Shown here piece after piece: positions 17,102 through 44,249 of a DNA stretch of 64,000 bases. Under the pieces are notes generated by a model, which made no database searches, was not told where the DNA came from, and was given only the letters and a program-made list of their open reading frames with translations. Location of the stretch: positions 45,089,885 through 45,153,884 of the forward strand of contig CAIIXF020000001.1 in NCBI GenBank assembly GCA_903813345.2. Direction: 5' to 3'. The stretch's first letter is position 1, and the number at the start of each line of letters is the position of its first letter. The position numbers and the translations under genes were made by a program. The DNA comes from Owenia fusiformis (Eukaryota; Annelida; Polychaeta; Sabellida; Oweniidae).

Positions 17102-17167
17102 AAACTGAGTCTTTATCTAGTTTGGTTGGCGATTTGTATTGGGTTCGAATTGACAATCCGATACTAA

Positions 17168-17173: not shown

Positions 17174-17277
17174 TGGCGGCTCATCTTACCTAGACTGGCT
17201 AGTATGTTGTTCCATAATCAGATCTATAATTATATTGTAGTTTTTTCTTTAATTAATGCTTATATCTTGTTTTACTG

Positions 17278-18295: not shown

Positions 18296-18670
18296 ATATC
18301 ATAAATGTTTGGGAGTACTTTGAATTTAAAAAATAAGCAATCAAATGACCAAATTGGAACAGTTTATGTAAAAATAGAAACATTTATATTTATCCTAACT
18401 TTTGTATATTTTAGTTTGTTTTGTAGTTTAGCTATCATATCTATGTCCTCTTATATTTTGATACTTCTCTGCCATGTTATTTTCGGAAAAATTAACATGG
18501 CTGAAACTTCCTAAATTACAAAAGGCCACAGCTTTGCTGCACATTATACATTACTATCTGAAATATACAAAAGTTAGGATAATTATAAATGTTCCTATTT
18601 TTACATAAATTGTTTCAATTTGGTCATTTGATTGCTTATTTTTTAAATTCAAAGTACTCCCAAACATTTA
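18296..18670. mobile_element. Palindromic MITE (about 0.38 kb), unit A
   Basis: Arms of about 110 bp are near-perfect inverted repeats: CATAAATGTTTGGGAGTACT on the left against AGTACTCCCAAACATTTA on the right. In units A and B another element (995 bp) has inserted into the right terminal repeat; the last bases of this element resume after it (TGATTTGAC at about 19668). The uninterrupted version is in unit C. Confidence 0.75.
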
Positions 18671-19665: not shown

Positions 19666-19790
19666 TATGATTTGACTATAGATGCATGCATTTGATTAGT
19701 AGAGTAACCCTGTCTAACCAAGGAATCATTTTGGAGTATTTTGTCTATGTTCGTTTGGACTTTCATTCAAGAATGTACTTTTGGTGTATA

Positions 19791-20849: not shown

Positions 20850-20994
20850 GCGTAGAATTCACACATAGCTATGCAAGGCTATGCAAGGTGTCCTAATCCA
20901 ATCCGAACACGCTATTTCTTATAACCGCATTGCATTATATATAGATGAGACGTACCCGAGTAGACACAAAATTATTTAAGGTTTAATCACTAGG

Positions 20995-21885
20995 GGAGGG
21001 CATTTGTACTGAAAGGAGCGTTTTCAGTGTATCTTTTTTTAAGTAAATGTTTCAGAATATTTGTATACTGAAAAACGTCAGTACATTTTTCAGTATACAA
21101 AAAAACTGAAACATTTACTGACTTTTTAAGGACATTTTAAGTACAAAAATATACTGACTTTTTAAGGACATTTTTAAGTATAAATAATATTGCAATTAAT
21201 TTGTGATTGTGTTCATATCATGTTTTCATTTTGTTTGTGCAAGGAATGAAGTAATCATGGATTTATCAATGCAAAGTAGAGGCATGATCATATAGTAAAC
21301 CAATTAAGCTTGATGAGTTCAGACATTTCTTTTGTTCTCCATACAGACACATCCAGTTTTTAATCCTTTTGTTAGTGTTAAAGTGTTTCATTAACCTATT
21401 AAAATGACCAGGTGTACCCAGGTGTCACAATCTCCTCATAATGTCAAATTGCCCTGAGTATGGAAATATCCTATACAAGATGGATTTTCAGTATATTATT
21501 TATGCTCAGTTTTCAAAATAAAAAGTCAGTATATTTTTAAAATTCAGTATATTTTCAGTATATTTTTGTACTTAAAATGTTCTTAAAAAGTCAGTATATT
21601 TTTCAGTACATTTTTATACTAAAAAATGATTTTAAAAGTCAGTATATTTTTCAGTACATTTCTGTACTTAAAACTATCTTTAAAAAGTCAGTATATTTTT
21701 CAGTACATTTTGTACTTGAAAATGCCCTTAAAAAGTCAGTATATTTTTCAGTACATTATATATATACTGACTTTTTTATCAGTACATTTTTCAGTATACT
21801 AATATACTGAGACATGTACTTAAAAAAAGTCAGTATATTTTTCAGTACAAAAATACACTGATAACGCTACTTTCAGTACAAATGT
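20995..21885. repeat. CAGTAC/GTACTTAAAA satellite, unit B
   Basis: About 0.9 kb with two clusters of AAAAGTCAGTATATTTTTCAG and CAGTACATTTTTGTAC words separated by about 300 bp of non-repetitive DNA. A 77-codon ORF (repeated KSQYIFQYI words) is a product of the repeat. Unit B has more tandem copies at 21590-21770 than unit C. Confidence 0.8.
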
Positions 21886-21945
21886 CCTCCAACAGTGATT
21901 ACATATTGTAAACCTTAAATAATTTTGTGTCTACTCGGATACTTC

Positions 21946-24370
21946 TCATCTAAAAGTGTTAATAAGCTTTGATACGCCTGTTTGTGATGGAATGGGAATT
22001 TTTCTAGTAGTTCTTGGTGATGGAATTATTTGTTCTTCAGCATAGACATTTACTTTTCTCGCAGTGTCCTGTGTAATGTACGCAGAGTTGTCTGGTCCGG
22101 TGGAAGTCATAATAAAAACTTCAAGATCTGAAAAATGTTTATAGATTTCATTTTCACAGAAATAATTAGATATAAAATATTATATATTCACAATGAAAAA
22201 CATTGAATCAAGCGGATTGTCTCCCTTTGTTTTTCACATCACTAGCATCTCACTTTAATATACCAAAATAATTCGGATATATTTGAAGAACAAAATGATG
22301 CGCGATAGGTCAGAGTGACAACAGTATTTTTACTTTCAGCGTTGTTCAGAGCTCTCATTTCGGGTACAGAATTTTCACATACATCCGAGTTCTTTCCCAT
22401 TGAAATAGCCTATACAGGGTCCGATTTTTAGCCATTATTTCAGCTTTAATTGGCATTCTTCTTCACGTTTATAATGCACAATCGTTAAAATGTATATGCC
22501 CTTATGACAAACTGCAAGGCATTTTCACAAACATTTTTCTGAAATCAAGGAGGTGGCTCCCAGGATCGGAACTTGATATTTTCCAACAATGAAAACGTCA
22601 AAATGTCGTTATTTTCTGAAATTATAACCGTCTTTTAATTCAAAATAAACAGTTCAGGAGATTCGAACCAATATCTCGATCATTTCTTGAGAGTTTTTAG
22701 TAAAGAAGACCAAAATTCATGATTCAAATGTTGAAGTGAACAAAATGGCGGCTATTTGAATTAGAATTTTGTATCACGACATGCCCATATATGGGACAAA
22801 ATATCGATGTTGCACTCTTGAAGCCAATCCTCCTTGTCTGAAATCATAAAATGTATTGCCGTGACGTTATTTCCCCCCTTCTTGATTTTTTTTGCAAAAT
22901 ATTTGGCATCTCCACTAATTTTTTAGCTTGAGCCACAGATATTTATTTGGCGTAAAAACCAAGGTGATTGGGGGTAGAGGGGCAAAGTTATGATAGTTGG
23001 AACTTGATGCCAATAAAATTGAAATTAATAAAATATCGATTGTTACTTTGTTTTAAATGCTCTAGATAATACAAAAATATAATTGTTGCTTTTTTTAATA
23101 GATAACAATTAAGTATAATTATTGAATTTTCTTCCCAATATGCTTTATTTCATGAAAATCGAGCCACCATCGACTGTGTCATGAATTTTTTAAGGTAAGA
23201 AACAGTTAATCGAGAAAAACTGATTTTTTCAAAAACTAGCTTTATCTTTTGAATTATACCTTTGAATTCTTTTGCATGTTCCTATATCTTTATGCACACG
23301 GTGGTACCAGAATTATGATGATACCTTCTTCCGAATTTTAGATATACTTTTTTTTCTCCCCGGCCCCCATTTTTCAATTTCACTATTTCGATGTTTGTGC
23401 CGTTGCTAGGTTGTTGCAAGGCAACACCATGAACCGAAATTATATTGGAACAATACCAAGTCATACATTCATACACCTGCATACTAAATCATTAATTGGC
23501 ATTTGTTGTACATCTTGAAATTGAAATGAATACTAAAGACAAAATCAAGTTGAAGTTGAAATTGCTGACTAGTATTCAATCCACATTACATTAATTTCAA
23601 TGGAATTTCGCGATACCTGCTATCTTTGAAAGTGTGTAACTTCAGTTCTAGAAAAGCTTTTACCATGATTTTAGTTTTTATTTGAAAGATAATAGATTGT
23701 TATTTAAGGCAGCGAAGCATTTTTGGCACAAACAATTTATTGTTAAAGAAAATTGACAATTTATCACAAAATGTCAAATATTTGGATCCCCCTAGGTCAC
23801 GTTGACCTCGATTTGACCTATGTTGACGTATTTTTGAAAAAACAAAAATTTTCTGAAGAGGTTATTAAACAAGGCTTACAACAATACCAAATATAATGAC
23901 ACTCAGTTAGTGTTTAAAAAATTGCAGACATTAAGATTTAAGCTGCAATGGTAATGTCAATGTTTAATGAAACGTATGCCTCCTCCAGTGAAATCATAAG
24001 AATATTACATCTGACCATTATTCATCCGCTTACTTGTTTTCGCATTTCCTTTTACTTATAGTTAATCACCAGCCAGTGATAAAGTGTTAAAACGTAAATT
24101 GCAAAATAAACAGATGAGCATAAGAATGACTAATCCTCGTTGACAAGTATACCAAAAAAAGTAGCGATGCCATATACGTCAATATCAAGATACCCGCCTG
24201 AAATATATGTATTAAAGCACTGCAATCACAGAACACATCATTGATGTTTTATCGATTTAAAACAGATTTTCTCACACTTTTCACTTACTTCCAGATATAT
24301 TTCAGCAAACCATTTATATGCTTCTTTGACTGGTCTGAGCTGATCTAGGTCAAGGTCAGAGGCCTTTATC
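21946..24370 (-). pseudogene. Decayed SEA/receptor-tail gene remnants, unit B
   Basis: Best-preserved copy of the remnant. A terminal exon at 21946-22127 (AG acceptor, 59 codons, DLEVFIMTSTGPDNSAYITQ..., stop) is laid out like the real tail exon, which starts DLEGLMIPLEE. An exon-like piece at 22334-22409 gives NSVPEMRALNNAE. At about 24145-24215 a SEA-like piece reads NTYISGGYLDIDVYGIATFF, close to the real HTYLSDGYLGSDVSGIADAF, but runs into TAG soon after. Near 24290-24350 AYKWFAEIYLE is followed by GTAAGT. The stop and missing TM exon argue for a pseudogene of an older paralog. Confidence 0.5.
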
Positions 24371-24895
24371 TAGGTCAGTGCTTCTTCCCTGCTAACGATT
24401 GGTAAGAAGTATGTATTTGTGTTAGATAAACGCTCAAAAGGATTGGTATCGATATGGCGAACTGAATTCAACATTGTTTTTCTCTTAAAACAATTATTGA
24501 AAACATTCCATTTATTATATTGAGATGATCCTAGGGTGATGACATTAATGTGTCATTACATATTGTCATCCTTGAATTATAATAGAAGGCTGGACATCCC
24601 TATCCTGCAGCAGATCTTCTCAATTACGTGTGAGTTACAGTACATAAGGGGTCCAAGATGTTTTAAACTCAAACAGCAACGTTCCAAGTGGGGTTGTGGG
24701 TCTGATTTGTTTGTGTTTGTTTAGGTTGTGTTTCATCGGCTTCATTGTCATTAAATTAATTGAAAATAATCAAAATCATGTACAAGTTCTCAGGAGTTCA
24801 TATCTTACCTGAAAATTTGAGATTTGAACAAAATACGCAATCGACCGGGCGCCGGCCGATGAATCGGAGCAAATGTGACCTAGGGATGTTGTGAC

Positions 24896-26690
24896 ATACC
24901 TCCTTGTTGGTACAAGAAACGATTGCTCATAATGTTGAACAAGGCCAAATGTTAATTATTACAATATGTGATATTAAAAAGGCATTTGATACAGTGTGGA
25001 TAGATGGTCTCCTGGTTAAACTGTACGACTGCGGTATTAGAGGCCATTTATGGAAAATATTGTACCTTAGCTATAAAATGTATGAATGTGCTGTAATGGT
25101 AGGCCAAATATGCTCTGAAACCTTCCCTGTATTACAAGGAGTACACCAGGGAGGGGTTCTTTCTATGCTTTTTTACCAATTGTATATGTCAGATTTAATT
25201 GATACTATGATGCAAGTTCATACCGGTGCATCTGTAGCAGATATCAAATGTGTTTGTCCATGTTACGCCGATGATATGTGTATTCTGTCAAACTCATATA
25301 TGTCAATGCAAACCCTTCTAAATCATCTTACACATCATAGCAACAAATGGAGGTACCAAGTTCATCCACAAAAATGTGCATATATGACCTTTAATGACAA
25401 TAAAAACATACATGTTAATCACAGTTTGAGTATTGGAGGTGAGGCAATTGAAAAATCAGATTATCAAGTACATGTAGGTGTACCTCTCTCCTCCAAAAAT
25501 GATGTCTCAAGATATGTAGAAGAAAAATGTACTAAGGGAAGAAAGCAATTTTACTCATTACTTGGTATTGGAAATAAATGTGGAGGTGTAACTCCAATTT
25601 CTGCATCTAAACTGTATAAAACTTATTCAATTCCATGTATGACCTATGCTGCCCCAGTTGTGAATTATCAGCAGAAGGACATTGAAACTATTAATAAAAC
25701 ACAACGTGATATTGGGCGAAGGATCCAGTCCTTGCCTAGATCTGCTAGCAATTCCATTTCTACAGTGACCCTAGGGTGGTTAGATATCGACTTGTATATA
25801 GATTTTTTAAGAATGATGTTCTTGTGGAGTCTTATTTTGTTATCATATAAGAATGTTTACAAAAGATTACTTGTAATACGTTTGACAAAATTTTTACATG
25901 AAGGTTTTAAAAATACCAAAATATTTTCACCCATGGCATCAATGTTGCAATGTGCTATGAGGTATGGATTTAGAGAGATTATTCAGAATATGTTAGATTG
26001 TAATATTGTGATAAGTAAAGGCCAATGGAAAAGATTAGTTTTCGCCAATGTTTCACACAGCCAAATTTATAGAACGTCTATTCAGTCAATTATGTACAGC
26101 AGTCTTGCAGATTTTAGAAAAAACGTTTGTATTACATTGGATCCTAATATATGGTGGATCGTTGCTCAAAATTTTCCGCGGGCAACAGACTCTTGTAAAC
26201 TAATGTTCAGACTTTTGGTAGGTGAGCACAACTTGAATTATAAGTATAGAGGAGGTGAAGATCAGTGTAAACGATGTAAACTGTGTAACTCATTCCAGTT
26301 AGAGACGGTTGAACATTTCTTAATGCATTGCTCTGCCGCACAATACTCCATATACAGGCAAGAACTTAAGGAATGTTTTACTAAGCACAAGTTCGAGTTT
26401 TCGTTCAATACAATTCTTGGGATAAATGTTGTGCCAAATCCAAATGCAATTGTTCTCTTAAAAGAGATAGCACAAATTATTTTCAAGCAATATAATAACA
26501 CGGTCTAACAGTGGCTGTGTTTGAGACACTTACAGTGCCTGACTCAACCGTACGAGCATTTTGCGCATTGAATAGTTTTCATACGTCTAATATGTATATA
26601 ATTTTGTCATAATTTTGTACTTTTATTTTACATCACTGTACATATAAATTGTATCTCCATTTTATTATGGGCAATAAAGATATACAATAC
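24896..26690 (+). mobile_element. LINE-a: 5'-truncated non-LTR retrotransposon, unit B
   Basis: Inserted in the GC-rich repeat cluster; unit A keeps the empty site (GTTGTGACAATACTCACGG). One ORF (24904-26508, 534 codons) carries reverse-transcriptase motifs: DIKKAFDTVW (A), GVHQGGVLS (B) and YADDM (C). Its C-terminal CKRCKLCN...HFLMHC knuckle is typical of LINE RT proteins. No endonuclease or 5' UTR, so it is dead on arrival. The 3' tail is AATAAAGATATACAATAC rather than a long poly-A. Any target duplication is only a few bases and its limits are ambiguous. The clade is uncertain. Confidence 0.85.
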
Positions 26691-26824
26691 AATACTCACG
26701 GCAAAATCAAGATATCGGAAAAAAGTCAACGGTGCCTGGTCGATTTAGAAATCGGCCGGCGCCCGGCGCAAATGTGACCAAGGCATTACTTACAGTACTT
26801 TTGTCTAGGTCCAATTTGCTCCAA

Positions 26825-28596
26825 CTGGTAAGCATTGTTCATTTTATTAATTCAAATATTGATGATTTGGCGGACACCAGAGGCATCTTCCTCGACATAG
26901 AAGGTGCTTTTGACGCCGTTCCTCACTTCCTGTTGATCAAAAAATTAAAATCATACGGTTTACCTCAGAGTATTATTGATCTCTTTCAAAGTTATCTTAC
27001 CAATAGAAAATTAAACTGCCGTGTCAATAATATATATTCCAAATTCTCAGAGGAAGGCATAATCAATAGTGGGGTACCCCAGGGATCTATCTGGGGGCCA
27101 TTATTCTTCCTTTTGTACATAAATGATCTACCTGAAGTCATTAGAAATGGTAAAATGTTCTTATATGCTGACGACAGTTCTATATTTTTTAAAGTTGATA
27201 AGGACAGAGATCTAGCTGAAGCTCAGCGGGAAATACAATTTGATCTTGATAAGTTGTCTGAATGGTCCGATTTGCGGAAGTTGAAATTCAAAGCATCTAA
27301 AAGTAAAGAATTGATATTTAGGAGTAGACGTCGTTTCAAGAGGCAGTTTGAGCCAGTTACCATGAATGGTGTAACTATAGCAAGACAAGATTCACATTGC
27401 CACCTGGGTGTAATTTTAGATGATGCTCTGACTTTCACCGAACACATAACCCAACTCCGTATCAAAATAGACAAGATGATAAATCCACTTAATTGTTTAA
27501 AATATAAGATTGCTAGTAAACACCTTGAAACTATGTATATGTCCTTTATTTTACCCCATTTAGAATACGGCTCAGTTTTAATTGATGCGGCTCCAAAACA
27601 CGAACTCTTGAAATTGGACAGGCTTCACTATAAGGCAGCCTTAATTGTTAGCGGCTGTATCAAGGGAACAAATACAAACAAAGTTCTGAAAATTCTAAAC
27701 TGGGCTCCACTATCGGAAAAAAGAAAACAAAAGAAACTGTTATTAATGCATGATGTTTATTATGAAAATGCCCCTCCATACATTTCAAATATTTTCAATT
27801 TGTACCGAAACAAGAGGCCAACTCGAGCCCTAAGAAAAACGCCCCATTTTATTGTACCCGCGAAACAATCTGAAAAAACTAGACGCGGTACTGTAGTTTC
27901 TTCTATATCTGAATGGGAGAGGGACACATTACCTGATCAACTCAAAACCATTCCAATAAAGCGCACTTTTAAATACCATCTTAAAAAACATTTATTTCCG
28001 AAGAAGACCCTAATTGACACAGTCCACTTGAATTTAGACAGGCAAGCTGAAATAGTACTTAATAAAACCAGATGTGATTTCATTTTTCGTTACCATAAGT
28101 TCCAGCATCAATTCAATAATGTCAATCCTCAATGCCTGTGCGGTTTTCGATCTCAGACAACCCAACACCTATTCTTTTCTTGCCCCCTTTTACTTGATCT
28201 CAGGGAACAACTAGCACTTGACCTTGCAGGGATACCCAATTTCAACATTAACCATTATAACAAACTATATGCAAAAGAGAAACTAGATACATTGTTATAT
28301 GGTGGCTCAACATATAAAATTGATACTAACAAGCTTATAGTCACAACAACTGCCAACTTTATTTCTTTAATTGTAGACTATGTTTAACTTTATATATTTG
28401 GTGTAAAATGTCACATGTAACTTACATGTATTGTCATGCTGAGTGTTCAGCAGCCTAAAATTACTTGATTTTTATGTGCCTACGTATTTGTGAAAATCGA
28501 CATGGGCCACTAATGCCAATGGCCTTGGCCCATTGTCGGACATTGTGAAATGATAGTATTGATAAATAAAACATAACCTATAAAAAAAAAAAAAAA
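26825..28596 (+). mobile_element. LINE-b: 5'-truncated CR1/L2/Jockey-like retrotransposon, unit B
   Basis: Poly-A tail at 28582-28596 and a 9-bp target duplication TTGCTCCAA (26816-26824 and 28597-28605). The empty site is present in unit A at 12181-12190. The ORF is open to 28387 with RT motifs FLDIEGAFDAVP (A), GVPQGSIWGPL (B) and YADDSS (C), and a C-terminal CLCG...HLFFSC knuckle. The first about 31 codons of the open frame (from 26732, MPGRFRNRPAPG) are host repeat sequence, not LINE. Endonuclease absent. The clade is inferred from the RT motif style. Confidence 0.85.
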
Positions 28597-29004
28597 TTGC
28601 TCCAATTCATCGGCCGCCGCCCGGCTGATTGTAGTATATTGTTCAAAACTGATTTCAACTTGCTTCAAATTGACCAAACTTTTTTTGAAATCATGTACAA
28701 GTTCCCAGGAGTTTACAACTGACCATAACATTTGAGAGTTGACCTTCAATTTTGAACAAAATACTCAATCGACCGGGCACCAGCCGATAGATTGGGGCAA
28801 ATGTTACCTAGGCTTCACAAGTAACCATATAATTCATCAAAGTTCAGAAGAATCAGTGTTTAAAACATTCTAAGCATTCTAATTCTAGAATGTATTTATA
28901 TGTAGCCTCGGCCCCTCGCAATCTATGTAAATAATTATGTTGAATTCTATAGAAATAAATAACAAAAACCTTTAAAAAATGTATTTCACACCACAGATTT
29001 GAAT

Positions 29005-29543
29005 CACTGCTACCCACCTAGTTACACAGACGTATCGTCAGTGTATCATGGCGGAACTACTTCCGGGACTAGGTTTCGGTAAGATTTTTTTATTTCCCGA
29101 TTTACACCTACTTATAAGTCACGTTGTGGATAATAATTTGGCTCGAAGTTAAGGAAGATAGTCTTGTTTGAGAATGTGTCGATGGTTTTAGGTTTTATAT
29201 GTTAACGAAGACACAATTCACGTATTTAGTCCCTCGCTTTTGTTACACTGACGAACGACCAATATCAGTGTAATATTGGCAATATTAATGCCGATCGTCA
29301 GTGTAACAAAAGCGAGGTACTAAATATGTGAAATGCGAATTCTTTAACATACCCAACCTAAAACCATCGACACATTCTCAAACAAGACTATCTCCCATAA
29401 CTTGAGCCAAATTATAATCCATATCGTGACTTATAAGTAGATGTAAATCGAGAAATAAAAATATCTTACCAAATTCAAATCCCGGAAGTAGTTCAGCCAT
29501 GATACACTGACGATACGTCTGTGTAACTAGGTGGGTAGCAGTG
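29005..29543. mobile_element. 540-bp foldback element upstream of TLR2
   Basis: Same element and target duplication (TGAAT) as 12584-13123. It ends 212 bp before the TLR2 ATG and differs from unit A by scattered substitutions and one or two indels. Confidence 0.85.
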
Positions 29544-29595
29544 TGAATGAAAAGGTCACAAAACTAGTTTGAATCGATAAAATTGATCGGCCTGG

Positions 29596-29603
29596 TATGT
29601 AAA
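29596..29603 (+). promoter_or_regulatory. Altered TATA-like site of TLR2 (TATGTAAA)
   Basis: Position-equivalent to the TATATAAA of TLR1, with one A to G change that weakens the TATA consensus. TLR3 carries the same variant. Functional effect not shown. Confidence 0.35.
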
Positions 29604-29754
29604 ACTCCACAAAGCAAATCATAGCAGCAGAAAATATAAGGTTTGTTTACTTTATTTTGTTGAGCTTGTCGCTATATTCCAGGTAAAAAGGCAACTGTGC
29701 TGTTAAGAAACTATAAAAACATAATACAAATATAATCGACATCTAGAGAGCAAT

Positions 29755-32700
29755 ATGTTGGACATTCAAAACTTAATTTGCTTTGCGTTTGTGTTTTTAA
29801 TCATCTGCCATATTTCGAAGACGAGACAAATTGTAATAGATGGACCACCGACTGAAAATTGGATTATGTACAGAGCAACATCTCAAGACATTCCAGAATA
29901 TAAGTACAAATGGCCTTTGGAAAACAATCAGGGTCAGGTTGTCATTGATATAGACAGTTCGAAATGGTTAACAGTTGGTCAATATTCAACTGTATTGGAT
30001 GTGAAGAGCAACACCATCGTGGGCACGATCTATAAGCTTGACATTGAATCTGATTGGGACGATCCGTTGGTTCAAAGAAACACGACCGTTTTACATGTTA
30101 AATGTAGAGAATACAATGGATTGAAACCTTCGATTCCTAATGCTGTTACTTTGGGACAGTATAAGGATATTCGTTACTCAAGAATTGAATGCTTCTTGAA
30201 GAACATGTCTGTGACATTCTTAAAGGGCCTTGTTCACTTAAGATGGTTGGATCTAGCGAACAACAATATTTCTGTAGTTGAGCAACATGCGTTTGATGAT
30301 TTGGTTGCATTGGAAGATTTAGTCTTAACAAGAAACCCAATAGGGTTCCTCCCTAATGGACTATTTTGCACTATGCCCAAACTGAAAACATTAAAATTGG
30401 ATTACTTAAAGCTGACAGGATTCCCAACTGCTGCGTTCCAATCCAAATCGACATGTCTAGGCAATCTTCAAGATCTGGATCTCTCAAATAACAAATTGGT
30501 CAGTATACCAAATGCTTCATTCTCTCAAATGAACATGCTGACCAACCTTAGTCTCTATAATTGCTCCATACATATTTTGGACGCGAATGCCTTCGAAGGG
30601 TTAACAAATATAGAACATTTAGACATTGGACAGAATTGGATAAAAGAATTACCAGTCGACATATTTTCAAGTACGTCCAAATTATACAATCTTACACATG
30701 TAAAGTTGGGTTCGAACAACATTACTCATTTCTCATTCGATTTGTTCGTGAAATGCGTAGCCTTGACATTTGTAGACCTCCAGATGAATCAAATCGAACA
30801 CGTACACGGAAGTATTAAGGACACTCGGCTCGAATTCATATATTTCAATGGCAATGTTATTCGATCATTTCCAGCTAATATGTTTTATTCTAATGACACA
30901 GATATTCTTGTGCTCAGCGATAATCATATCTCAATCATTCATCCTGATTATTTGTTAATGCCAAACCTAAAGCTTCTGGGATTAGATCGGAACAACTTAA
31001 CAATTCTGGGGAACTTCACATTTCATCATCTTGGAAAGCTGAAACGTTTATTCGTAAGGAACAATAAAATCGCAGAACTTGGTGCACTGGCATTTGAAGG
31101 TCTTGAACAATTGGAATATCTTTTCCTGGACAACAACAAAGTCAACAAGGTTCCGTCTGGAATATTCAAAAAGGTAAAACATTTAAAAACGTTGTCACTA
31201 AGACAAAATTATATCCTTAACTTAGATGGAACAATGCTTGAGGGTCTTAACTCGTTGGATACTATTGAATTAGACAATAACATGATTCAAACTATTGAAA
31301 CATATACATTCCAGCACTTTAAATCTCTTCGTATTGTTTCACTTCAGTCAAACCACATAACTACTATACCATATGGTATATTTGGACATTTGCGTCATTC
31401 ATTAGGATGGATAGATCTTAAAGGGAACAACCTAAGTGCACTACCAGCAGATTTGTTCACAGGATTCTTTAAGTTACGTTATCTCGTCATTTCCCATAAC
31501 AATCTTGTCAATCTATCTATGAAACTAGTCGACGGTTGTACAAATCTACAACTCCTAGATTTAAGTTACAATCAGATCAAAGACTTCAATGTTTCGTTGA
31601 AATCAAACAAGAAGTTAAGTCATTTATACGTCGCAAATAATCAACTTAAGAACGCATGGAATATCTTTGAACATATGCATCTTGTACCATCACTTATACA
31701 TTTAGACCTATCAGTAAACAATATGACTTCATTTGGATCAATTCCACGAGTATTGACAGGTATTCCGTCTTTTCTTCGTAGTGTAAATATAAGTCATAAT
31801 CGTATCACCGATGTTCCAGAAAATCAATTTTATCTATCAAGATGGTTGCAAGAACTGGATATGTCGGCTAACAGAATACAAACAATAAAAGAGCCAACGT
31901 TCATATCCAAGGATCATCCAGGAGATATTATCTATCATGTTGGTACAGAAAATCCGTTTGTATGTGATTGTTTCATGAGATGGGCAAGAAACGCACTTAA
32001 TGAGTCTCTGTGCACAGTTCCAATTCTGAGTGATGGGACGGCAAAGAGGATGAAAGATGTGCCAGCTCGTCTATATCTTTGTCAAATAAAAATGAAATGC
32101 CCGGAAAAATGTGAGTGCTTTGCTGATACAGTAAAAGAGCCGTACATTTGGATACATATAAAATGTTCCAACAAAGAACTCGAGTACATACCCTTTGAAA
32201 TTCCAAATACAACTAACGTACTAGATGTATCTCATAATAACATTAATCAATTGGATTCGGCAACATTTCATAATGCTAGTTGTCCTATATTGCAGATTTT
32301 GGACTTGTCTAGCTGTCAAATCACAGCACTCCTTGGGAATGACATTTTCAATGGATTTGTTCAATTAACAATATTGAACCTAAGTAATAATCTCATAGTG
32401 CAACTAAACGGTGAACCGTTTAAAAACCTATTTTTGTTGAATGAACTTTACATTTCCAAAAACTCTATCAAAACGATCGAAGACAATGTATTTACTGGCC
32501 TCAAAACACTGTCTTCCCTTGATCTTGAAGGCAATCGTCTTCAGAATGTAAATCTTACGATTTTTGAATCACTGGATCTGATGTTAATTAATGGAAACCC
32601 GTTACTTAAGGTACTTGGAGGTGGCCCCCTAAATGTTCAAGACCAATGGGAATCAAAATGGTATATTTTGCTGTCTAATAATCCATGGGACTGCTGTACG

Positions 32701-33492
32701 GCTTTATCATTAAAGAGATGGTTAAACTCTCACCAATCAATCATACCCAATTTGGTAGACATTCACTGCATGCGAGACAATTTGACCGAGTTGGTTCCTT
32801 TATTCGAAATCAGTGATTCGAACTTAACATGCATTCCAGAGCCGCCAATACCATTCCAGCAGACTTCGTACTTCCATGCAATTATAGGAGTACTTGTTGT
32901 TGTATCTCTCATCCTTACAACTGCATTACTTTTTAAACGATTTGAATCACTTATAAAACTAAAGTTCTTTATCTGGTTTGGTTGGCGATTCGACAGGATA
33001 GACAACAGTAATAAACAATATGACGCATTATTGTCATACAGTGGGCTCAATGGTGATTGGGTGCGTGATGAATTGCTGATAAAACTTGAGGAAGCTGGGT
33101 ATAAGCTCTGTTTACACGAACGTGACTTCAGAGCTGGGGAACCTATCATGGACAACATAAATAATGCCATAGACAACAGCAAAAGGACAATTATTGTTCT
33201 GTCGAATGAGTTTCTACAAAGTGGATACGCGTTATATGAGTTTTTAAGGTCATACGATGATTGGGTCAGAGGTGAACGAGATCCTGTCATCTTAGTGCTG
33301 TATGATTCGCTGGATACTTTAGACGAAGATGACTTAGCAAAACATCCTTCTTTAAAGTTGTATTTATCTACAAGAACATATCTTGCGAGAAATAATAAAT
33401 ATTTCTGGGAAAATATTATTCTCGCAATGCCCCGGCGACGAAGGCAACGAGATCCAGACAATAATGGTAACGATGGTTTGATGCTGGCTTGA
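29755..33492 (+). CDS. Toll-like receptor copy 2 (TLR2 of this array), intact, chimeric
   Basis: Single-exon 1245-aa type I receptor. Signal peptide-like MLDIQNLICFAFVFLIICHI; a long LRR array; first cysteine cluster with NPFVCDC at 733-739 (LRRCT) followed by CPEKCEC (LRRNT); a second LRR block; second LRRCT at NPWDCC (976-981); TM helix at about 1040-1060; TIR domain from about 1087 with YDALLSYS (1089, box 1), LCLHERDFRAGEP (box 2/BB loop) and FW (box 3). Two cysteine clusters make it a Drosophila-Toll-like multiple-cysteine-cluster TLR. Family role: ligand-driven dimerisation and MyD88-type TIR signalling at the plasma membrane or endosome. The start matches the conserved ATG of all three copies. 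It is a hybrid: TLR3-like before about 31270 and TLR1-like after about 31301. The only copy with an open frame throughout. Confidence 0.95.
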   Translation: MLDIQNLICFAFVFLIICHISKTRQIVIDGPPTENWIMYRATSQDIPEYKYKWPLENNQGQVVIDIDSSKWLTVGQYSTVLDVKSNTIVGTIYKLDIESDWDDPLVQRNTTVLHVKCREYNGLKPSIPNAVTLGQYKDIRYSRIECFLKNMSVTFLKGLVHLRWLDLANNNISVVEQHAFDDLVALEDLVLTRNPIGFLPNGLFCTMPKLKTLKLDYLKLTGFPTAAFQSKSTCLGNLQDLDLSNNKLVSIPNASFSQMNMLTNLSLYNCSIHILDANAFEGLTNIEHLDIGQNWIKELPVDIFSSTSKLYNLTHVKLGSNNITHFSFDLFVKCVALTFVDLQMNQIEHVHGSIKDTRLEFIYFNGNVIRSFPANMFYSNDTDILVLSDNHISIIHPDYLLMPNLKLLGLDRNNLTILGNFTFHHLGKLKRLFVRNNKIAELGALAFEGLEQLEYLFLDNNKVNKVPSGIFKKVKHLKTLSLRQNYILNLDGTMLEGLNSLDTIELDNNMIQTIETYTFQHFKSLRIVSLQSNHITTIPYGIFGHLRHSLGWIDLKGNNLSALPADLFTGFFKLRYLVISHNNLVNLSMKLVDGCTNLQLLDLSYNQIKDFNVSLKSNKKLSHLYVANNQLKNAWNIFEHMHLVPSLIHLDLSVNNMTSFGSIPRVLTGIPSFLRSVNISHNRITDVPENQFYLSRWLQELDMSANRIQTIKEPTFISKDHPGDIIYHVGTENPFVCDCFMRWARNALNESLCTVPILSDGTAKRMKDVPARLYLCQIKMKCPEKCECFADTVKEPYIWIHIKCSNKELEYIPFEIPNTTNVLDVSHNNINQLDSATFHNASCPILQILDLSSCQITALLGNDIFNGFVQLTILNLSNNLIVQLNGEPFKNLFLLNELYISKNSIKTIEDNVFTGLKTLSSLDLEGNRLQNVNLTIFESLDLMLINGNPLLKVLGGGPLNVQDQWESKWYILLSNNPWDCCTALSLKRWLNSHQSIIPNLVDIHCMRDNLTELVPLFEISDSNLTCIPEPPIPFQQTSYFHAIIGVLVVVSLILTTALLFKRFESLIKLKFFIWFGWRFDRIDNSNKQYDALLSYSGLNGDWVRDELLIKLEEAGYKLCLHERDFRAGEPIMDNINNAIDNSKRTIIVLSNEFLQSGYALYEFLRSYDDWVRGERDPVILVLYDSLDTLDEDDLAKHPSLKLYLSTRTYLARNNKYFWENIILAMPRRRRQRDPDNNGNDGLMLA

Positions 33493-33558
33493 AAACTGAG
33501 TCTTTATCTAGTTTGGTTGGCGATTTGTATTGGGTTCGAATTGACAATCCGATACTAA

Positions 33559-33564
33559 AATAAA
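33559..33564 (+). terminator. Polyadenylation signal after TLR2
   Basis: AATAAA 67 bp after the stop codon, conserved in position with TLR1. Motif evidence only. Confidence 0.5.
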
Positions 33565-33664
33565 TGGCGCCTCATCTTACCTAGACTGGCTAGTATGTTG
33601 TTCCATAATCAGATCTATAATTATATTGTAGTTTTTTCTTTAATTAACGCTTATATCTTGTTTT

Positions 33665-34243
33665 ACTGACGGAACCGTCGTACTTCAATCCTACTAGACG
33701 TTTTAACAACGAGTTGAACTGTCTGAGGACGTGTTGAGAACGAGGTAGAACTAATTGCAAACGGGTTTAAACTGATTAAGAACGTATTTAACACTGCTTA
33801 ACAAAAAGTTAGCAAAAATATAGCTATCACACCAAACAAGTTGCCACTGCGTTCTTCAAAACTGGTTTGAAACTGTGTGCGAACGGAATGAATGTAGCTG
33901 CAACTTTCTAAGGTCTATTTACGAACTTTATGAACGTACTCAGACGGGAATGTGATTTTAGAATTTTGAATCGATTCAAAATTCGATGGCGACCATACCG
34001 TTCTGTAATCAGGTCATGTTGACCTTCTAGAATAAGGGACGCGTTCTACAACGTTGCATATCGACGTGGTGCGACCTGAACGAACTGCGAACGAGATGGA
34101 CGTATTGAAGACTGTTTAAGAACGAAGAAGCTAATCATTTTAGACATATTTCCCGACCACAGCCAGATTGAGCCCGTTTTACGACGTTTTCGTAGGACTG
34201 GCAAGAACGGGTAAGAACTAGTTTGGTGTGAAAGGGGGGGGGG
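33665..34243 (+). repeat. GAACG-rich repeat after TLR2, ending in a G10 run
   Basis: Homologous to 17278-17839. It keeps a short segment (GTATTTAACACTGCTTAAC, near 33785) that the TLR1 copy has lost but the inverted copy at 1-535 retains. Poly-G is 10 bases here (34234-34243) against 19 after TLR1. Confidence 0.65.
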
Positions 34244-34699
34244 TAAACATGTTGACATCAACAGTGTTCTATAATTGAAGCGGTGAACATCCGTGATTAT
34301 ACATATATGTGATTTGGTATCACTTCAAACCATATTGAATACAAGGTAATTCGCTTGTTGTATTGGGAATATGGAGTTTACAAATAATTTCAGGGGTCCC
34401 TAACTTCGAATCACGCGATTGCCAGCTCCGATGTCGCTGACCAGTTTCCTTTTACCCGTACTACGTCCTCAGCACGCGATTACTGGTTGGTTAGTCGTGA
34501 ACCACCAGTTCCTCTCTCCCTTTCTCCACCCACTGTGTTTCACTGTGTTGCCCTTGATGTCAATAAACTTTGTGGTAAATTGTATTCTAGACGACCGTAA
34601 GGTATCTCACGAAACATTGAATATAATAAGTGAAGATATTCCATTTTACTTTTATGAGCATGTGAGCGTTTATTTTATTTTACCATTAAGGAATGAATC
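34244..34699. other. Conserved non-coding stretch, unit B
   Basis: Near-identical to 17840-18295; no gene recognised. See the unit A entry for motifs. Confidence 0.35.
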
Positions 34700-35074
34700 A
34701 TATCATAAATGTTTGGGAGTACTTTGAATTTAAAAAATAAGCAATCAAATGACCAAATTGGAACAGTTTATGTAAAAATAGAAACATTTATATTTATCCT
34801 AACTTTTGTATATTTTAGTTTGTTTTGTAGTTTAGCTATCATATCTATGTCCTCTTATATTTTGATACTTCTCTGCCATGTTATTTTCGGAAAAATTAAC
34901 ATGGCTGAAACTTCCTAAATTACAAAAGGCCACAGCTTTGCTGCACATTATACATTACTATCTGAAATATACAAAAGTTAGGATAATTATAAATGTTCCT
35001 ATTTTTACATAAATTGTTTCAATTTGGTCATTTGATTGCTTATTTTTTAAATTCAAAGTACTCCCAAACATTTA
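34700..35074. mobile_element. Palindromic MITE (about 0.38 kb), unit B
   Basis: Same as 18296-18670, again interrupted in its right terminal repeat by the 995-bp element. Confidence 0.75.
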
Positions 35075-36069
35075 CAGGGTTGTCCAAAAAAGTGAACCCC
35101 TGCAACTGGCCATATTTCCCTTATAACTTGCAGGAATTCTTTTTTATTTTCATATGTTGTAGAGGAAGGTCTAAAATTTATGTTGGTACCATACATTTTT
35201 CTTAGTCTTGAAATTTGCAGAAATTATAAGCCCTAACCAAACATTACTGAAAATGGATAAATTGTGATTTTCAATATCCGCAATTCTTCAACCCTTTAAC
35301 ACCTTTCCCCTGAGAATTTTTTAAGCTGCAGTCTTAAAGAACTAAAATTTTCTGACTTTGTTCAATTTTAAATCCTGCACATTATGGCTTAAAATTAGCA
35401 TCCTACATTTGTTAGTTGCAAAGTTATTGTGATCCAAGAGATGTGCTAAGCTTCCACAGACGAAAACATTTTCCAGTGAAATCATGAGCATACCCCTATA
35501 TGATCTTGAATTGTCAATATCTTCATAAATCATGGACCAATTCTAATGATATATGGCTCAAAACATTGAATATTGGATTTTCTTTTGATTTTTTAAAGAT
35601 ATTTGATGAAGGGGTTATCAGATTCCTGATCACAGGGGGCAACTTCCTTCCATAAGAGGCCCCCCTCTAACTGTTGATGTAGGTAACATACCCCTGAACT
35701 GTTGAACAGTTAAAAATGCTTCAAAATGATCAATGAAAGTGTGAAATGTGTTTTCTGCTTGAATAGTGTCCCTTTTGTCATATGGTAGGGTTTTAAACTT
35801 GTATCTCTAACTGAAAGCTATTTAAGATCATCCAATGTGTTTCAACAATTTCCGTGAATCACCTTTGTAAAATTGCGTACAATGTCTAATTTCCAGGCAT
35901 GTTTGTTAAACGCTTGTAATTTCTTCAAAATTTAAGACTGAGAATAAATTATGGCATCAACCAAAATTTTAGACCTTTCTCTACAACATGTGATAATATG
36001 AGCCAATTCATGCATATATTAAGAAAAATGTAGCCTGTTGCAGGGGTTCGCTTTTTTTGGATCACCCTG
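35075..36069. mobile_element. Mariner-like foldback MITE, 995 bp, unit B
   Basis: Same element, length and TA target duplication (35073-35074 and 36070-36071) as 18671-19665. Its presence here and its absence after TLR3 supports the view that the flank of TLR2 came from the TLR1 unit. Confidence 0.85.
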
Positions 36070-36100
36070 TATGATTTGACTATAGATGCATGCATTTGAT

Positions 36101-37303
36101 CAAGGGAAAGATCAATACCCGGTGATTTCAGCGGGAAGTGGCGTTTCGTTCATTGGATGAGCTGCGCGCGCACGCATAAATGTGATTATCCAATATAATT
36201 AGGGGAGGGCTATTTGAAGTAGTTTTTGGTCTCAGGCGCGACCCAGGGCTGTTGTCTTAAGGACATTTCGTTGAAAATGAGCCATTCGGCTGATAATTGG
36301 TAAGAGTTTGCGATCTTATAATGTATAACTGTTACTCAGACACATATTTTGACACGATTCTGTTGGAAATAAGCTTTGAACCGAGAGATATTCACGATTG
36401 ATATGCACATTTTTGATTGTGCCATTGCTTTTCTATTGTACAACCCATGTATTGATAGAAGAAACATTAATAATACAGATTGGTTTACCTTCAATACATG
36501 GCAGACACTACATATCGGTCTATTAATACCAGTTTGTGCCTTAAATAGTTTTATATTTCCATCCACGGCCTGGAGCCTGGGTGTGTTTGTCTCTTATGTG
36601 TATGCTTGTGCATGGACTTCTAATCACTAGCAGAATTTAACATGATGCAAACTCGACATTATAACTCATGCTGTAACATTTTGACTTCGCTGGAAAACAA
36701 TAGGAATTATTTTTCTTGCCAATCAATCATGAATCACAATCAAAATTTCAGAATGATCAATCAGGCAATGATCCAAATCAAGTTATAACATTATATGATA
36801 TTCAGCAAGAAGTCCGGTAGAAATACAGAATATTTAAACATCAAAGCTGAAAGTTAAAAGCTAATCTGTCAATTTTCTGTCTGCAAAAGAGCGTCCCAAG
36901 AGCGTTTACATTTGACACAATAACAGACTGAGGCCTTGAAATCTAGGATTCCCCAGGAAAATATGACGTCATACTAATTAGCATAAGGATTTCCCTATTG
37001 GGGTGGGTCGAGCCTTGTTCGAAAACACAATCCATAAATACATGCTAATTTCTAAGGAGATAGGAAGTGTATAACGTGTTTATCGATTTTGTTTAAAGAT
37101 TTAATCAATTATCAAATTGTTTAAGTGGATAAAGTGGTCACACTTGCTTCAATTCATAGCGAAATCGACGGATAGAAACTGACCGAATTCCCGATATCCT
37201 ACCCCGTATTACTGTAGGCTATAAGCACAGTGACCTACAGAGGGCGCTATCACAAACAAGTACTGGACGAACCGATAAATTCCCGGGTATTGTAACGCCC
37301 TTG
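36101..37303. mobile_element. DNA transposon-like element, 1203 bp, unique to unit B
   Basis: Ends CAAGGG...CCCTTG with imperfect ~22-bp terminal repeats (both ends share CAAGGG and AATACCCGG). Flanked by ATTTGAT on both sides (36094-36100, 37304-37310); the limits are ambiguous, so the duplication could be 5-7 bp. The empty site GCATTTGATTAGTAG is at about 19683 in unit A and about 52727 in unit C. Two overlapping ORFs of 76-84 codons on opposite strands have no recognised domain. Superfamily not assigned; hAT-like is possible but the duplication is shorter than 8 bp. Confidence 0.8.
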
Positions 37304-37404
37304 ATTTGATTAGTAGAGTAACCCTGTCTAACCAAGGAATCATTTTGGAGTATTTTGTCTATGTTCGTTTGGACTTTCATTCAAGAATGTACTTTTGGTG
37401 TATA

Positions 37405-38462
37405 TCAGCTTTCGTCAGATATGTGTTGAAAGAATCTCATGAGTGATGATGTATCAGACATGGAATCTTTGTCTATATATGGTATGTGTTTATATTTGTC
37501 TTCCAGTGATAGGTGTGTCGTATTTGGGTTTTTCTTAGTAGTTCCTGGCGTTGAAACGGAATGTTTAATCTCCAACATTGGTATTTCCTCCTCAACAGGA
37601 GTATTGTCTTCTAAAGTTTGACTTAAAACTTCAATATCTGCAGCATTTGCTTCCTCCAATGGAATCATAAGCCCTTCGAGATCTGAAAAAAAATTATGGA
37701 TAAAATTAACAATTTGCAATTTACAGTTTGCAATATTGTTCTGTTCACTTGTAAAAAATGACCCAGCCAGCAAGGTGTGGAACAATCGAGTATTCACCTG
37801 GTTCATCCGAAGGGTCGAATGCTATGTTAGTATATCCTCCATTTTCCTTTAACTTCTTTAGTGCATCTTTTCGTTCCTTTTCATTGAGGTCACCCAACAG
37901 ATATTCTCGATACCTTAGTCTTTTCGCCTTTTTACTGAAAAAAGCAAAATATCCTTAATACTTTGTGTACAATGCATAGGATGGTAGTATTTCTTGATAG
38001 TGATTAATCTTTAAGATTTGATTTCTTATTTGTCTGTTGATTGTTGAATGTATTATGTAAAACGATGTTAAGATTTTTACAGAGTATATTTGCCAGAATA
38101 ACTATTGCAGCCAGGCAAAGTAGTGTTATTTGAGTAAGATTAATAACATTGATCAGATTGAACACTTACGCTCTTTCAATCCTTATGAATATCTCCATAA
38201 TGAGAAGTATTGCAAGAAGCCCAAATATGAAGACCAACACGCCTATCACCACTGAAAATGTGATAAACTTGGGTTTAAAAATGCGAAATGATTTGGGGAA
38301 TTATCCTCGCCACCTATTTACAATGTTTCAATGTTACAATTTTTACATATTATTGTTTTGAGCTTGTGATTTTAGGTACACAGTTATGACTTGACTTACT
38401 CGCCCAAGGTGTCTCGCAAATCCCATCTGTACAACCCGCATTCTTTATAAAGAAGTGCATTA
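37405..38462 (-). pseudogene. Headless 3' copy of the EB/SEA receptor (TM + cytoplasmic tail), unit B
   Basis: Same content as 19791-20849: partial ectodomain exon 38400-38462, TM exon 38170-38251, cytoplasmic exon 1 37798-37934 and tail exon 37405-37682, all with intact splice sites and frame. It is cut at the B/C junction. As in unit A, the AATAAA downstream of the stop is AATGAA. It differs from unit A by only a few substitutions. Confidence 0.8.
38459..38462. other. B/C duplication junction (ATTA)
   Basis: Identical join to 20846-20849: receptor exon sequence on the left, AGCGTAGAATTCACACATA on the right. Expected if the second junction is a copy of the first made by unequal crossing-over. 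Confidence 0.8.
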
Positions 38463-38609
38463 GCGTAGAATTCACACATAGCTATGCAAGGCTATGCAAG
38501 GTGTCCTAATCCAATCCGAACACGCTATTTCTTATAACCGCATTGCATTATATATAGATGAGACGTACCCGAGCAGACACAAAATTATTTAAGGTTTAAT
38601 CACTAGGGG

Positions 38610-39425
38610 AGGGCATTTGTACTGAAAGGAGCGTTTTCAGTGTATCTTTTTACTGAAAGGTACTGACTTTTTTAAGTAAATGTTTCAGAATATTTGTATA
38701 CTGAAAAACGTCAGTACATTTTTCAGTATACAAAAACTGAAACATTTACTGACTTTTTAAGGACATTTTAAGTACAAAAATATACTGACTTTTTAAGGAC
38801 ATTTTTAAGTATAAATAATATTGCAATTAATTTGTGATTGTGTTCATATCATATTTTCATTTTGTTTGTGCAAGGAATGAAGTAATCATGGATTTATCAA
38901 TGCAAAGTAGAGGCATGATCATATAGTAAACCAATTAAGCTTGATGAGTTCAGACATTTCTTTTGTTCTCCATACAGACACATCCAGTTTTTAATCCTTT
39001 TGTTAGTGTTAAAGTGTTTCATTAACCTATTAAAATGACCAGGTGTACCCAGGTGTCACAATCTCCTCATAATGTCAAATTGCCCTGAGTATGGAAATAT
39101 CCTATACAAGATGGATTTTCAGTATATTATTTATGCTCAGTTTTCAAAATAAAAAGTCAGTATATTTTTAAAATTCAGTATATTTTCAGTATATTTTTGT
39201 ACTTAAAATGTTCTTAAAAAGTCAGTATATTTTTCAGTACATTTTTATACTAAAAAATGATTTTAAAAGTCAGTATATTTTTCAGTACATTATATATATA
39301 CTGACTTTTTTATCAGTACATTTTTCAGTATACTAATATACTGAGACATGTACTTAAAAAAAGTCAGTATATTTTTCAGTACAAAAATACACTGATAACG
39401 CTCCTTTCAGTACAAATGTCCTCCC
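38610..39425. repeat. CAGTAC/GTACTTAAAA satellite, unit C
   Basis: Equivalent to 20995-21885 with fewer tandem units in the second cluster. No gene. Confidence 0.8.
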
Positions 39426-39479
39426 CCAGTGATTACATATTGTAAACCTTAAATAATTTTGTGTCTACTCGGATACTTC

Positions 39480-41910
39480 TCATCTAAAAGTGTTAATAAG
39501 CTTTGATACGCCTGTTTGTGATGGAATGGGAATTTTTCTAGTAGTTCTTGGTGATGGAATTATTTGTTCTTCAGCATAGACATTTACTTTTCTCGCAGTG
39601 TCCTGTGTAATGTACGCAGAGTTGTCTGTTCCGGTGGAAGTCATAATAAAAACTTCAAGATCTGAAAAATGTTTATAGATTTCATTTTCACAGAAATAAT
39701 TAGATATAAAATATTATATATTCACAATGAAAAACATTGAATCAAGCGGATTGTCTCCCTTTGTTTTTCACATCACTAGCATCTCACTTTAATATACCAA
39801 AATAATTCGGATATATTTGAAGAACAAAATGATGCGCGATAGGTCAGAGTGACAACAGTATTTTTACCTTCAGCGTTGTTCAGAGCTCTCATTTCGGGTA
39901 CAGAATTTTCACATACATCCGAGTTCTTTCCCATTGAAATAGCCTATACAGGGTCCGATTTTTAGCCATTATTTCAGCTTTAATTGGCATTCTTCTTCAC
40001 GTTTATAATGCACAATCGTTAAAATGTATATGCCCTTATGACAAACTGCAAGGCATTTTCACAAACATTTTTCTGAAATCAAGGAGGTGGCTCCCAGGAT
40101 CGAAACTTGATATTTTCCAACAATGAAAACGTCAAAATGTCGTTATTTTCTGAAATTATAACCGTCTTTTAATTCAAAATAAACAGTTCAGGAGATTCGA
40201 ACCAATATCTCGATCATTTCTTGAGAGTTTTTAGTAAAGAAGACCAAAATTCATGATTCAAATGTTGAAGTGAACAAAATGGCGGCTATTTGAATTAGAA
40301 TTTTGTATCACGACATGCCCATATATGGGACAAAATATCGATGTTGCACTCTTGAAGCCAATCCTCCTTGTCTGAAATCATAAAATGTATTGCCGTGACG
40401 TTATTTCCCCCCTTCTTGATTTTTTTTGCAAAATATTTGGCATCTCCATTAATTTTTTAGCTTGAGCCACAGACATTTATTTGGCGTAAAAACCAAGGTG
40501 ATTGGGGGTAGAGGGGCAAAGTTATGATAGTTGGAACTTGATGCCAATAAAATTGAAATTAATAAAATATCGATTGTTACTTTGTTTTAAATGCTCTAGA
40601 TAATACAAAAATATAATTGTTGCTTTTTTTTAATAGATAACAATTAAGTATAATTATTGAATTTTCTTCCCAATATGCTTTATTTCATGAAAATCGAGCC
40701 ACCATCGACTGTGTCATGAATTTTTTAAGGTAAGAAACAGTTAATCGAGAAAAACTGATTTTTTCAAAAACTAGCTTTATCTTTTGAATTATACCTTTGA
40801 ATTCTTTTGCATGTTCCTATATCTTTATGCACACGGTGGTACCAGAATTATGATGATACCTTCTTCCGAATTTTAGATATACTTTTTTTTCTCCCCGGCC
40901 CCCATTTTTCAATTTCACTATTTCGATGTTTGTGCCGTTGCTAGGTTGTTGCAAGGCAACACCATGAACCGAACTTATATTGGAACAATACCAAGTCATA
41001 CATTCATACACCTGCATACTAAATCATTAATTGGCATTTGTTGTACATCTTGAAATTGAAATGAATACTAAAGACAAAATCAAGTTGAAGTTGAAATTGC
41101 TGACTAGTATTCAATCCACATTACATTAATTTCAATGGAATTTCGCGATACCTGCTATCTTTGAAAGTGTGTAACTTCAGTTCTAGAAAAGCTTTTACCA
41201 TGATTTTAGTTTTTATTTGAAAGATAATAGATTGTTATTTAAGGCAGCGAAGCATTTTTGGCACAAACAATTTATTGTTAAAGAAAATTGACAATTTATC
41301 ACAAAATGTCAAATATTTGGATCCCCCTAGGTCACGTTGACCTCGATTTGACTTATGTTGACGTATTTTTGAAAAAACAAAAATTTTCTGAAGAGGTTAT
41401 TAAACAAGGCTTACAACAATACCAAATATAATGACACTCAGTTAGTGTTTAAAAAATTGCAGACATTAAGATTTAAGCTGCAATGGTAATGTCAATGTTT
41501 AATGAAACGTATGCCTCCTCCAGTGAAATCATAAGAATATTACATCTGACCATTATTCATCCGCTTACTTGTTTTCGCATTTCCTTTTACTTATAGTTAA
41601 TCACCAGCCAGTGATAAAGTGTTAAAACGTAAATTGCAAAATAAACAGATGAGCATAAGAATGACTAATCCTCGTTGACAAGTATACCAAAAAAAGTAGC
41701 GATGCCATATACGTGAATATCAAGATACCCGCCTGAAATATATGTATTAAAGCACTGCAATCACAGAACACATCATTGATGTTTTATCGATTTAAAACAG
41801 ATTTTCTTACACTTTTCACTTACTTCCAGATAGATTTCAGCAAACCATTTATATGCTTCTTTGACTGGTCTGAGCTGATCTAGGTCAAGGTCAGAGGCCT
41901 TTATCTAGGT
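39480..41910 (-). pseudogene. Decayed SEA/receptor-tail gene remnants, unit C
   Basis: Nearly identical to 21946-24370. The terminal tail-like exon at 39480-39661 is open (59 codons plus stop) with an AG acceptor. The exon-like NAEG piece near 39870 has a better donor (GGTAAAA) than in unit B. The SEA-like piece near 41690-41750 is present. No TM exon was found. Confidence 0.5.
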
Positions 41911-42432
41911 CAGTGCTTCTTCCCTGCTAACGATTGGTAAGAAGTATGTATTTGTGTTAGATAAACGCTCAAAAGGATTGGTATCGATATGGCGAACTGA
42001 ATTCAACATTGTTTTTCTCTTAAACCAATTATTGAAAACATTCCATTTATTATATTGAGATGATCCTAGGGTGATGACATTAATGTGTCATTACATATTG
42101 TCATCCTTGAATTATAATAGAAGGCTGGACATCCCTATCCTGCAGCAGATCTTCTCAATTACCTGTGAGTTACAGTACATAAGGGGTCCAAGATGTTTTA
42201 AACTCAAACAGCAACGTTCCAAGTGGGGTTGTGGGTCTGATTTGTTTGTGTTTGTTTAGGTTGTGTTTCATCGGCTTCATTGTCATTAAATTAATTGAAA
42301 ATAATCAAAATCATGTACAAGTTCTCAGGAGTTCATATCTTACCTGAAAATTTGAGATTTGAACAAAATACGCAATCGACCGGGCGCCGGCCGATGAATC
42401 GGAGCAAATGTGACCTAGGGATGTTGTGACAT

Positions 42433-44117: not shown

Positions 44118-44249
44118 TACTCACGGCAAAATCAAGATATCGGAAAAAAGTCATCGGTGCCTGGTCGATTTAGAAATCGGCCGGCGCCCGGCGCAAATGT
44201 GACCAAGGCATTACTTACAGTACTTTTGTCTAGGTCCAATTTGCTCCAA

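Follow-up and report, generated by a model that had tools for sequence, protein, structure and literature searches.

The window analysed here, a 64,000-nucleotide stretch of Owenia fusiformis DNA (C1:45089885-45153884, with an N count of 0, from an assembly of 498 Mb and 525 contigs), carries three tandem plus-strand genes with near-identical Toll-like receptor (TLR) products. We call them A, B and C; an earlier note on this DNA called them TLR1, TLR2 and TLR3. The middle copy, B, is a mosaic whose nearest relative switches once, at a homologous position within the gene. The best explanation for the array is that A and C underwent a single unequal crossover in an ancestor with two genes, an explanation to which we assign a probability of roughly 0.8. 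All comparisons were made within this one assembly, in which a search for COX1 gave no match; the TLRs and LINE-like elements of the window are those of an animal.

Gene A (TLR1), 13335-17073, plus strand: 5' parent position; open reading frame (ORF) broken at three places.
Gene B (TLR2), 29755-33492, plus strand: hybrid; intact ORF of 1,245 amino acids.
Gene C (TLR3), 47209-50953, plus strand: 3' parent position; ORF of 1149 amino acids with its N-terminus cut off.

Gene B switches its nearest relative once

The three genes were aligned from 1.16 kb 5' of the ATG to beyond the stop codon, and a recombination test was run on the 184 gap-free informative sites at 28594-33490. On the 5' side of the switch, B is C-like at 71 informative sites and A-like at 11; on the 3' side, it is C-like at 6 and A-like at 96. 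The maximum chi-square is 121.7, with the best split between 31270 and 31301. None of 40,000 permutations attains the observed descent of 90 (the highest permuted value is 55), and the exact 3SEQ-type P value, for which sites are taken as independent, is 1.8e-28. This bears out the earlier note, which had the nearest relative of B change from TLR3 to TLR1 at 31270-31301. At the protein level, residues 1 to ~506 of B are C-type and residues ~516-1245 are A-type. The possibility that B is an independent third lineage was rejected, since there are only 8 AC-type columns in the alignment, 4 of them in the B gene.

B has its final C-type sites at 31269/31270 and its earliest A-type site at 31301. 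The states at and beyond these sites were polarised using three subfamily copies from the same genome as outgroups, O1 (C1:44.95M), O2 (C2:8.91-8.92M) and O5 (C5:5.71M). At 31270, all three outgroups carry the base of A, so the state shared by B and C is derived. At 31301, O1 alone decides, favouring a derived state in A and B, while at 31487 all three outgroups carry the base of C, so the state shared by A and B is derived. Two intervals can therefore be given for the breakpoint.

Minimal breakpoint interval: 31271-31300 in B, 14877-14906 in A and 48726-48755 in C; 30 bases identical in all three genes.
Conservative breakpoint interval: 31271-31486 in B (216 bp); based on sites polarised by all three outgroups.

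The ~30-bp breakpoint window proposed previously thus stands as a minimum but not as a limit, because its 3' edge depends on O1 alone, 31487 being the first A/B-derived site on which all outgroups agree. Within B, the junction shows zero bases gained or lost and occupies a position that is homologous in A and C, as predicted for a homology-guided exchange.

Polarity also places a length change on the C side. B and C have in common a 27-bp in-frame deletion (site 30437-30438 in B), where A retains the bases. O5 and O2 match A in length at this site, which is disrupted by an insert in O1. Since A, O5 and O2 all retain the 27 bp, B has the derived state of C. As for the C-like differences found 3' of the switch, they amount to 7 (6 substitutions and 1 indel), of which O1 makes all but 32777 A-derived.

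A separate observation concerns a tract at 30087-30411 in B (13666-13990 in A), in which the divergence of A from B/C is raised. Synonymous divergence (dS) between A and B/C is 0.27 over 30080-30420, 0.016 before and 0.07 after. When this tract is compared with the paralog at C1:44.95M, A is ~96% alike, and B and C are ~90-94% alike. Exchange or conversion at an earlier time is the probable source of this pattern, and C may carry a foreign tract here.

The flanks of gene B follow C upstream and A downstream

Over kilobases, the upstream flank of B follows C, and its downstream flank follows A. The elements that mark these flanks, including long interspersed nuclear element (LINE)-like sequences, are as follows.

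Two LINE-like reverse-transcriptase ORFs upstream of B, 24904-26508 and 26732-28387, plus strand: Pfam RVT_1.
The same two LINE-like elements upstream of C, 42595-45813, plus strand: second ORF split by a 1-nucleotide insertion.
A 995-bp repeat element, 18671-19665 in the flank of A and 35075-36069 in the flank of B: empty site in the flank of C.

In a self-BLAST of the window, 21630-28483, which is upstream of B and contains both reverse-transcriptase ORFs, has its counterpart in the region 5' of C, with identities of 99.2% and 99.6%. The upstream flank of A has no such LINE-like elements, and the alignment with B skips there from 11988/24678 to 12179/28594. Ahead of the LINE-like elements, the matches between the A and B upstream flanks are fragmentary, at 82-94%, and the piece running into the gene (12179-14022 in A) matches at 96.7%. 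Downstream, by comparison, A and B match at 98.8% over 14907-19696. The motif GAACG is found 9 times in the 3' flank of A, 8 times in that of B and 0 times in that of C. The earlier note had described two LINEs common to the upstream flanks of TLR2 and TLR3, and a GAACG repeat and a 995-bp element common to the downstream flanks of TLR1 and TLR2, and both descriptions hold. The 995-bp element is a genome-wide repeat, with at least 38 more copies, complete or almost so, at 95-98% identity among the best 40 of 673 candidates.

A 16-17 kb tile is present twice

A single crossover predicts that the array contains two copies of one stretch. We therefore compared the DNA from mid-A to mid-B with that from mid-B to mid-C.

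Tile 1, 14907-31270 (compared as 14891-31285): 3' part of A, A-type downstream flank, C-type upstream flank, 5' part of B.
Tile 2, 31301-48725 (compared as 31285-48740): 3' part of B, A-type downstream flank, C-type upstream flank, 5' part of C.
A 1.2-kb element, 36101-37303, in tile 2 only: short inverted ends; empty site in tile 1.

The two tiles, each of 16-17 kb, differ at 70 of 16,165 aligned columns (0.43%) and are equally close throughout, the differences being evenly spread whether binned at 500 bp (chi-square P 0.62), 1000 bp (P 0.54) or 2000 bp (P 0.76). Outside the tile, 61 of 1,512 coding bases (4.0%; 504 codons) differ between the 5' parts of A and B, and 98 of 2,187 (4.5%; 729 codons) differ between the 3' parts of B and C. 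The dS between A and C is 0.09. Since the 0.43% is even over the tile, the whole tile was doubled, and B was not assembled piecewise.

This evenness bears directly on the idea that the three genes are older copies and that B was converted by its neighbours, receiving its 5' part from C and its 3' part from A. Such conversion is a documented process in mammalian TLR1/TLR6 (PMC2077338, of which we cite an excerpt), and the older divergent tract at ~30087-30411 suggests that exchange was non-uniform earlier in this family. However, conversion would need to have copied 16-17 kb tiles in full, intergenic DNA and LINE-like elements included, and to have left an even divergence of 0.43%, and B has a single switch inside the gene. 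Conversion of B alone was rejected on the uniformity of the tile, and we consider a history of this kind very improbable. Much the same holds for a route without homologous exchange, in which template switching during replication, or end joining, duplicated the tile in tandem. It would produce the identical final order, but the two ends of the duplicated segment correspond to one homologous position in A and C, with zero bases added or lost, and we find this route hard to credit.

The 1.2-kb element found in tile 2 is bordered by 7-bp direct repeats (36094-36100 and 37304-37310). The genome has at least 39 other copies that are complete or almost complete, among the best 40 of 602 candidates. 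Because these copies are 99-100% identical, the element belongs to a young and recently active family. As for the age of the duplication itself, the 0.43% is an upper bound only, because an exchange between homologs would start the tiles with allelic differences.

A proposed single unequal crossover and the evidence against it

In the history that we propose, an older tandem duplication, flank included, would have given rise to A and C, with A then C as the ancestral order. LINE-like elements would then have inserted into the upstream flank of C, C would have lost 27 bp, and the 995-bp element would have inserted into the downstream flank of A. Subsequently, C on one chromatid or homolog would have paired with A on the other, and a crossover would have taken place at a homologous position in the ectodomain-coding sequence, at 31271-31300 by simple parsimony, or anywhere up to 31486 conservatively. 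The long product of this exchange would consist of the 5' part of A, two tiles and the 3' part of C (i.e., A, a C 5'/A 3' hybrid, and C). From C, the hybrid would thus have its upstream flank, the hydrophobic segment at its N-terminus and residues 1 to ~506; from A, it would have the remaining ectodomain, transmembrane (TM) segment and TIR domain. The 1.2-kb element would either have entered tile 2 after the crossover or represent a pre-existing allelic difference. The single TLR1 x TLR3 unequal crossover put forward in the earlier note, with its predicted order of A, C/A hybrid and C, is strongly supported, both the switch and the even 0.43% tile divergence being in agreement, and we infer one reciprocal exchange as the cause of the array.

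Several observations weigh against this history. The 11 A-like sites 5' of the switch comprise 5 in the upstream flank and 6 in the gene; by O1, 5 of the 6 in-gene sites are C-derived, the flank sites lying outside the polarisation. At 32777, the base of A is also that of O1 and O2, whereas B, C and O5 have a different one in common. At 30131, which counts less strongly, A and C share a base that differs from that of B and all three outgroups. A divergence of 0.43% is within the range that alleles can show. Finally, private substitutions near B are uneven in a way that a simple clock does not predict. Counted without indels over 28594-33492, 34315-35074 and 37304-38462, with a split chosen post hoc, B has 4 coding private substitutions versus 12 in its sister copies (binomial P 0.08), 2 versus 10 in near noncoding DNA (P 0.04) and 6 versus 22 in total (P 0.004). 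In the far upstream part of the tile, the trend is reversed (7 v 4). Site 30131 is among the 4 coding private substitutions of B but has the outgroup base, so there may have been no change in B. Since noncoding DNA shows the same deficit as coding DNA, these counts are not evidence for coding constraint on B.

The other points that count against the crossover are those that favour an assembly artefact, in which each haplotype carries only A and C, and the assembler joined C from haplotype 1 to A from haplotype 2, so that the tile was written out twice and no B exists. The same gene order and the same type of junction would be expected, and both the 0.43% and the young insertion confined to tile 2 look like ordinary allelic differences. 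In addition, three of the four lesions that break the frames of A and C are 1-nucleotide changes, some of them in short runs. On the other side, the window contains 0 N, and the join would have needed an overlap between genes that are 4-5% different. In the assembly, the right flank (59600-63900) lacks any second long copy, its matches being just 6 of ~40-48 bases each, two of which lie on high-numbered contigs, C505 and C213. The 12 matches of the TLR 3' part are confined to C1, C2, C5 and C8, while the strong extra matches of 54200-58200 sit in an internal repeat (among the best 40 of 1,804 candidates). Uncollapsed haplotigs were therefore not evident from the right flank and the TLR 3' part, which were searched, the left flank not having been searched. 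As judged from these sequence searches, an assembly that is collapsed and tidy at this locus is favoured, and we regard an artefact as unlikely.

Frame lesions in A and C are missing from B

The frame of A is broken by 1-nucleotide deletions near 13456 and near 15765 and by a 4-nucleotide insertion near 17036. C has a 1-nucleotide insertion near 47510, which forms a cluster with four substitutions in a 35-bp stretch. Three of these lesions, at 15765 and 17036 of A and at 47510 of C, lie in DNA shared with B, yet they are missing from B. The lesion at 13456 falls beyond the copied part, and B offers no means of dating it. The three lesions in shared DNA would thus postdate the exchange or have sat on other alleles. 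Since the lesions of the inherited 3' part of A and 5' part of C are missing from B, B was probably not rescued by recombination. The related idea that recombination purged the lesions was rejected, because three of the four are in the inherited parts and missing from B. It is possible that the 1-nucleotide lesions are sequencing errors. The ratio of nonsynonymous to synonymous divergence (dN/dS) between A and C is 0.39, which suggests that both were under constraint while diverging.

The outgroup copies are broken as well. O5 has a frame change at residue 294 and a stop in the projected frame, O2 is spread over ~13 kb and has a stop, and O1 has inserts and stops. B is thus the only unbroken copy among the 6 close subfamily members compared. 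Six is a lower bound for the subfamily; the DNA search also gave short matches at C2:7.37M and C8:19.49M. A protein search of the genome, for which the best 37 of 427 candidates were scored, also gave a more remote homolog, on C8, with 42% identity and a frame that is open across its match. The earlier assertion that the recombinant is the only open copy is therefore true of these 6 copies, but its open frame was probably not made from broken parents. That the sole intact member is a recombinant with new wiring, in which the upstream region and N-terminal ectodomain of C adjoin the membrane-proximal part and TIR domain of A, both parents having broken after the exchange so that one hybrid took the place of two receptors, in a state that may still be polymorphic, is a scenario we put forward tentatively and with some doubt.

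Gene B is predicted to encode a TLR

In a Pfam search, the B protein matches LRR_8 (E 1e-90) and TIR_2 (E 4.7e-15), the TIR domain being located at residues 1093-1197. Its top hydrophobic segment is residues 1042-1060, taken as the TM segment, and the second is the N-terminus (residues 1-20). TLRs are defined by extracellular leucine-rich repeats (LRRs), one TM segment and an intracellular TIR domain (PMC8609888, in excerpt), and the predicted B protein has all of these. P-type, or multiple-cysteine-cluster, TLRs have at least two LRRCT domains and commonly an LRRNT, according to the same excerpt. As judged by eye, the B cysteines at 737/739/753/776, 782/786/788/804 and 980/981/1005/1026 resemble LRRCT, LRRNT and LRRCT, respectively. 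An LRRCT profile was not among the 9 families in the Pfam search of B. When solved structures were ranked by sequence match to B, LRR proteins came first among the best 60 of 309 matches, LGR4 and the IGF-binding acid labile subunit being examples, and TLR5, TLR7 and TLR3 are also present. B may be a functional receptor, for which an open frame is not sufficient evidence. The description in the earlier note, a snapshot of a new immune-receptor gene in formation, goes too far in taking both function and recency for granted.

Comparison with known systems

One close likeness is to mammalian TLR1/TLR6, where sequence has also been exchanged between tandem TLR paralogs. As described in the excerpted source (PMC2077338), the C-terminal part of these receptors has been converted (LRR16-19, the C-terminal cap, the TM segment and most of the TIR domain), while the N-terminal parts diverge. 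That exchange is a non-reciprocal conversion, whereas here there is an extra gene together with both intergenic flanks (i.e., a duplication with a hybrid). According to the same excerpt, domain-exchanged TLR1/TLR6 receptors revealed the LRRs that discriminate lipopeptides (PMC2077338). Since domain exchange mattered for lipopeptides in that case, a new ectodomain pairing may, by analogy, matter here.

In a review of immune multigene families that evolve by birth and death (PMC10247546, in excerpt), homologous recombination in same-orientation gene pairs is said to permit expansion or contraction by unequal crossing-over, which is the process inferred here. The account in that excerpt is general and concerns vertebrates, whereas here one locus displays an individual event along with its junction. 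Chimeric genes between duplicated paralogs are also found for CYP21A1P/CYP21A2 in the RCCX module, although the title of that paper concerns deletion alleles (PMC3161346), while we describe a long three-gene product and an immune receptor. The sea urchin Sp185/333 (SpTransformer) genes (PMC5103432) are likewise clustered invertebrate immune genes with segmental duplications, but they are another gene family, and here there is one junction within a TLR. The mechanism is textbook knowledge, and what is new is the instance. No TLR hybrid formed by unequal crossing-over stood out in our literature search, which covered titles and abstract openings, and we make no claim of absence.

If the array is real in living animals, it would represent a clean and young case of the origin of a new innate receptor by one exchange. 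This exchange would have yielded a third gene, with a new pairing of ectodomain and TIR domain and a new pairing with upstream DNA, after which both parents would have decayed. With so narrow a junction, and with parents and outgroups available in one genome, the hybrid could be genotyped by one polymerase chain reaction, and the specificities of A, B and C could be directly compared.

Other features of the window

Three further features lie outside the TLR genes.

Minisatellite, 5414-6100: 28-bp units, ~24 copies.
A 1.4-kb repeat in the right flank, 55165-56573: long matches elsewhere in the genome, 86-100% identical.
Two cysteine-rich ORFs, 59696-60703 and 61127-62341, minus strand: both match the Pfam EB module.

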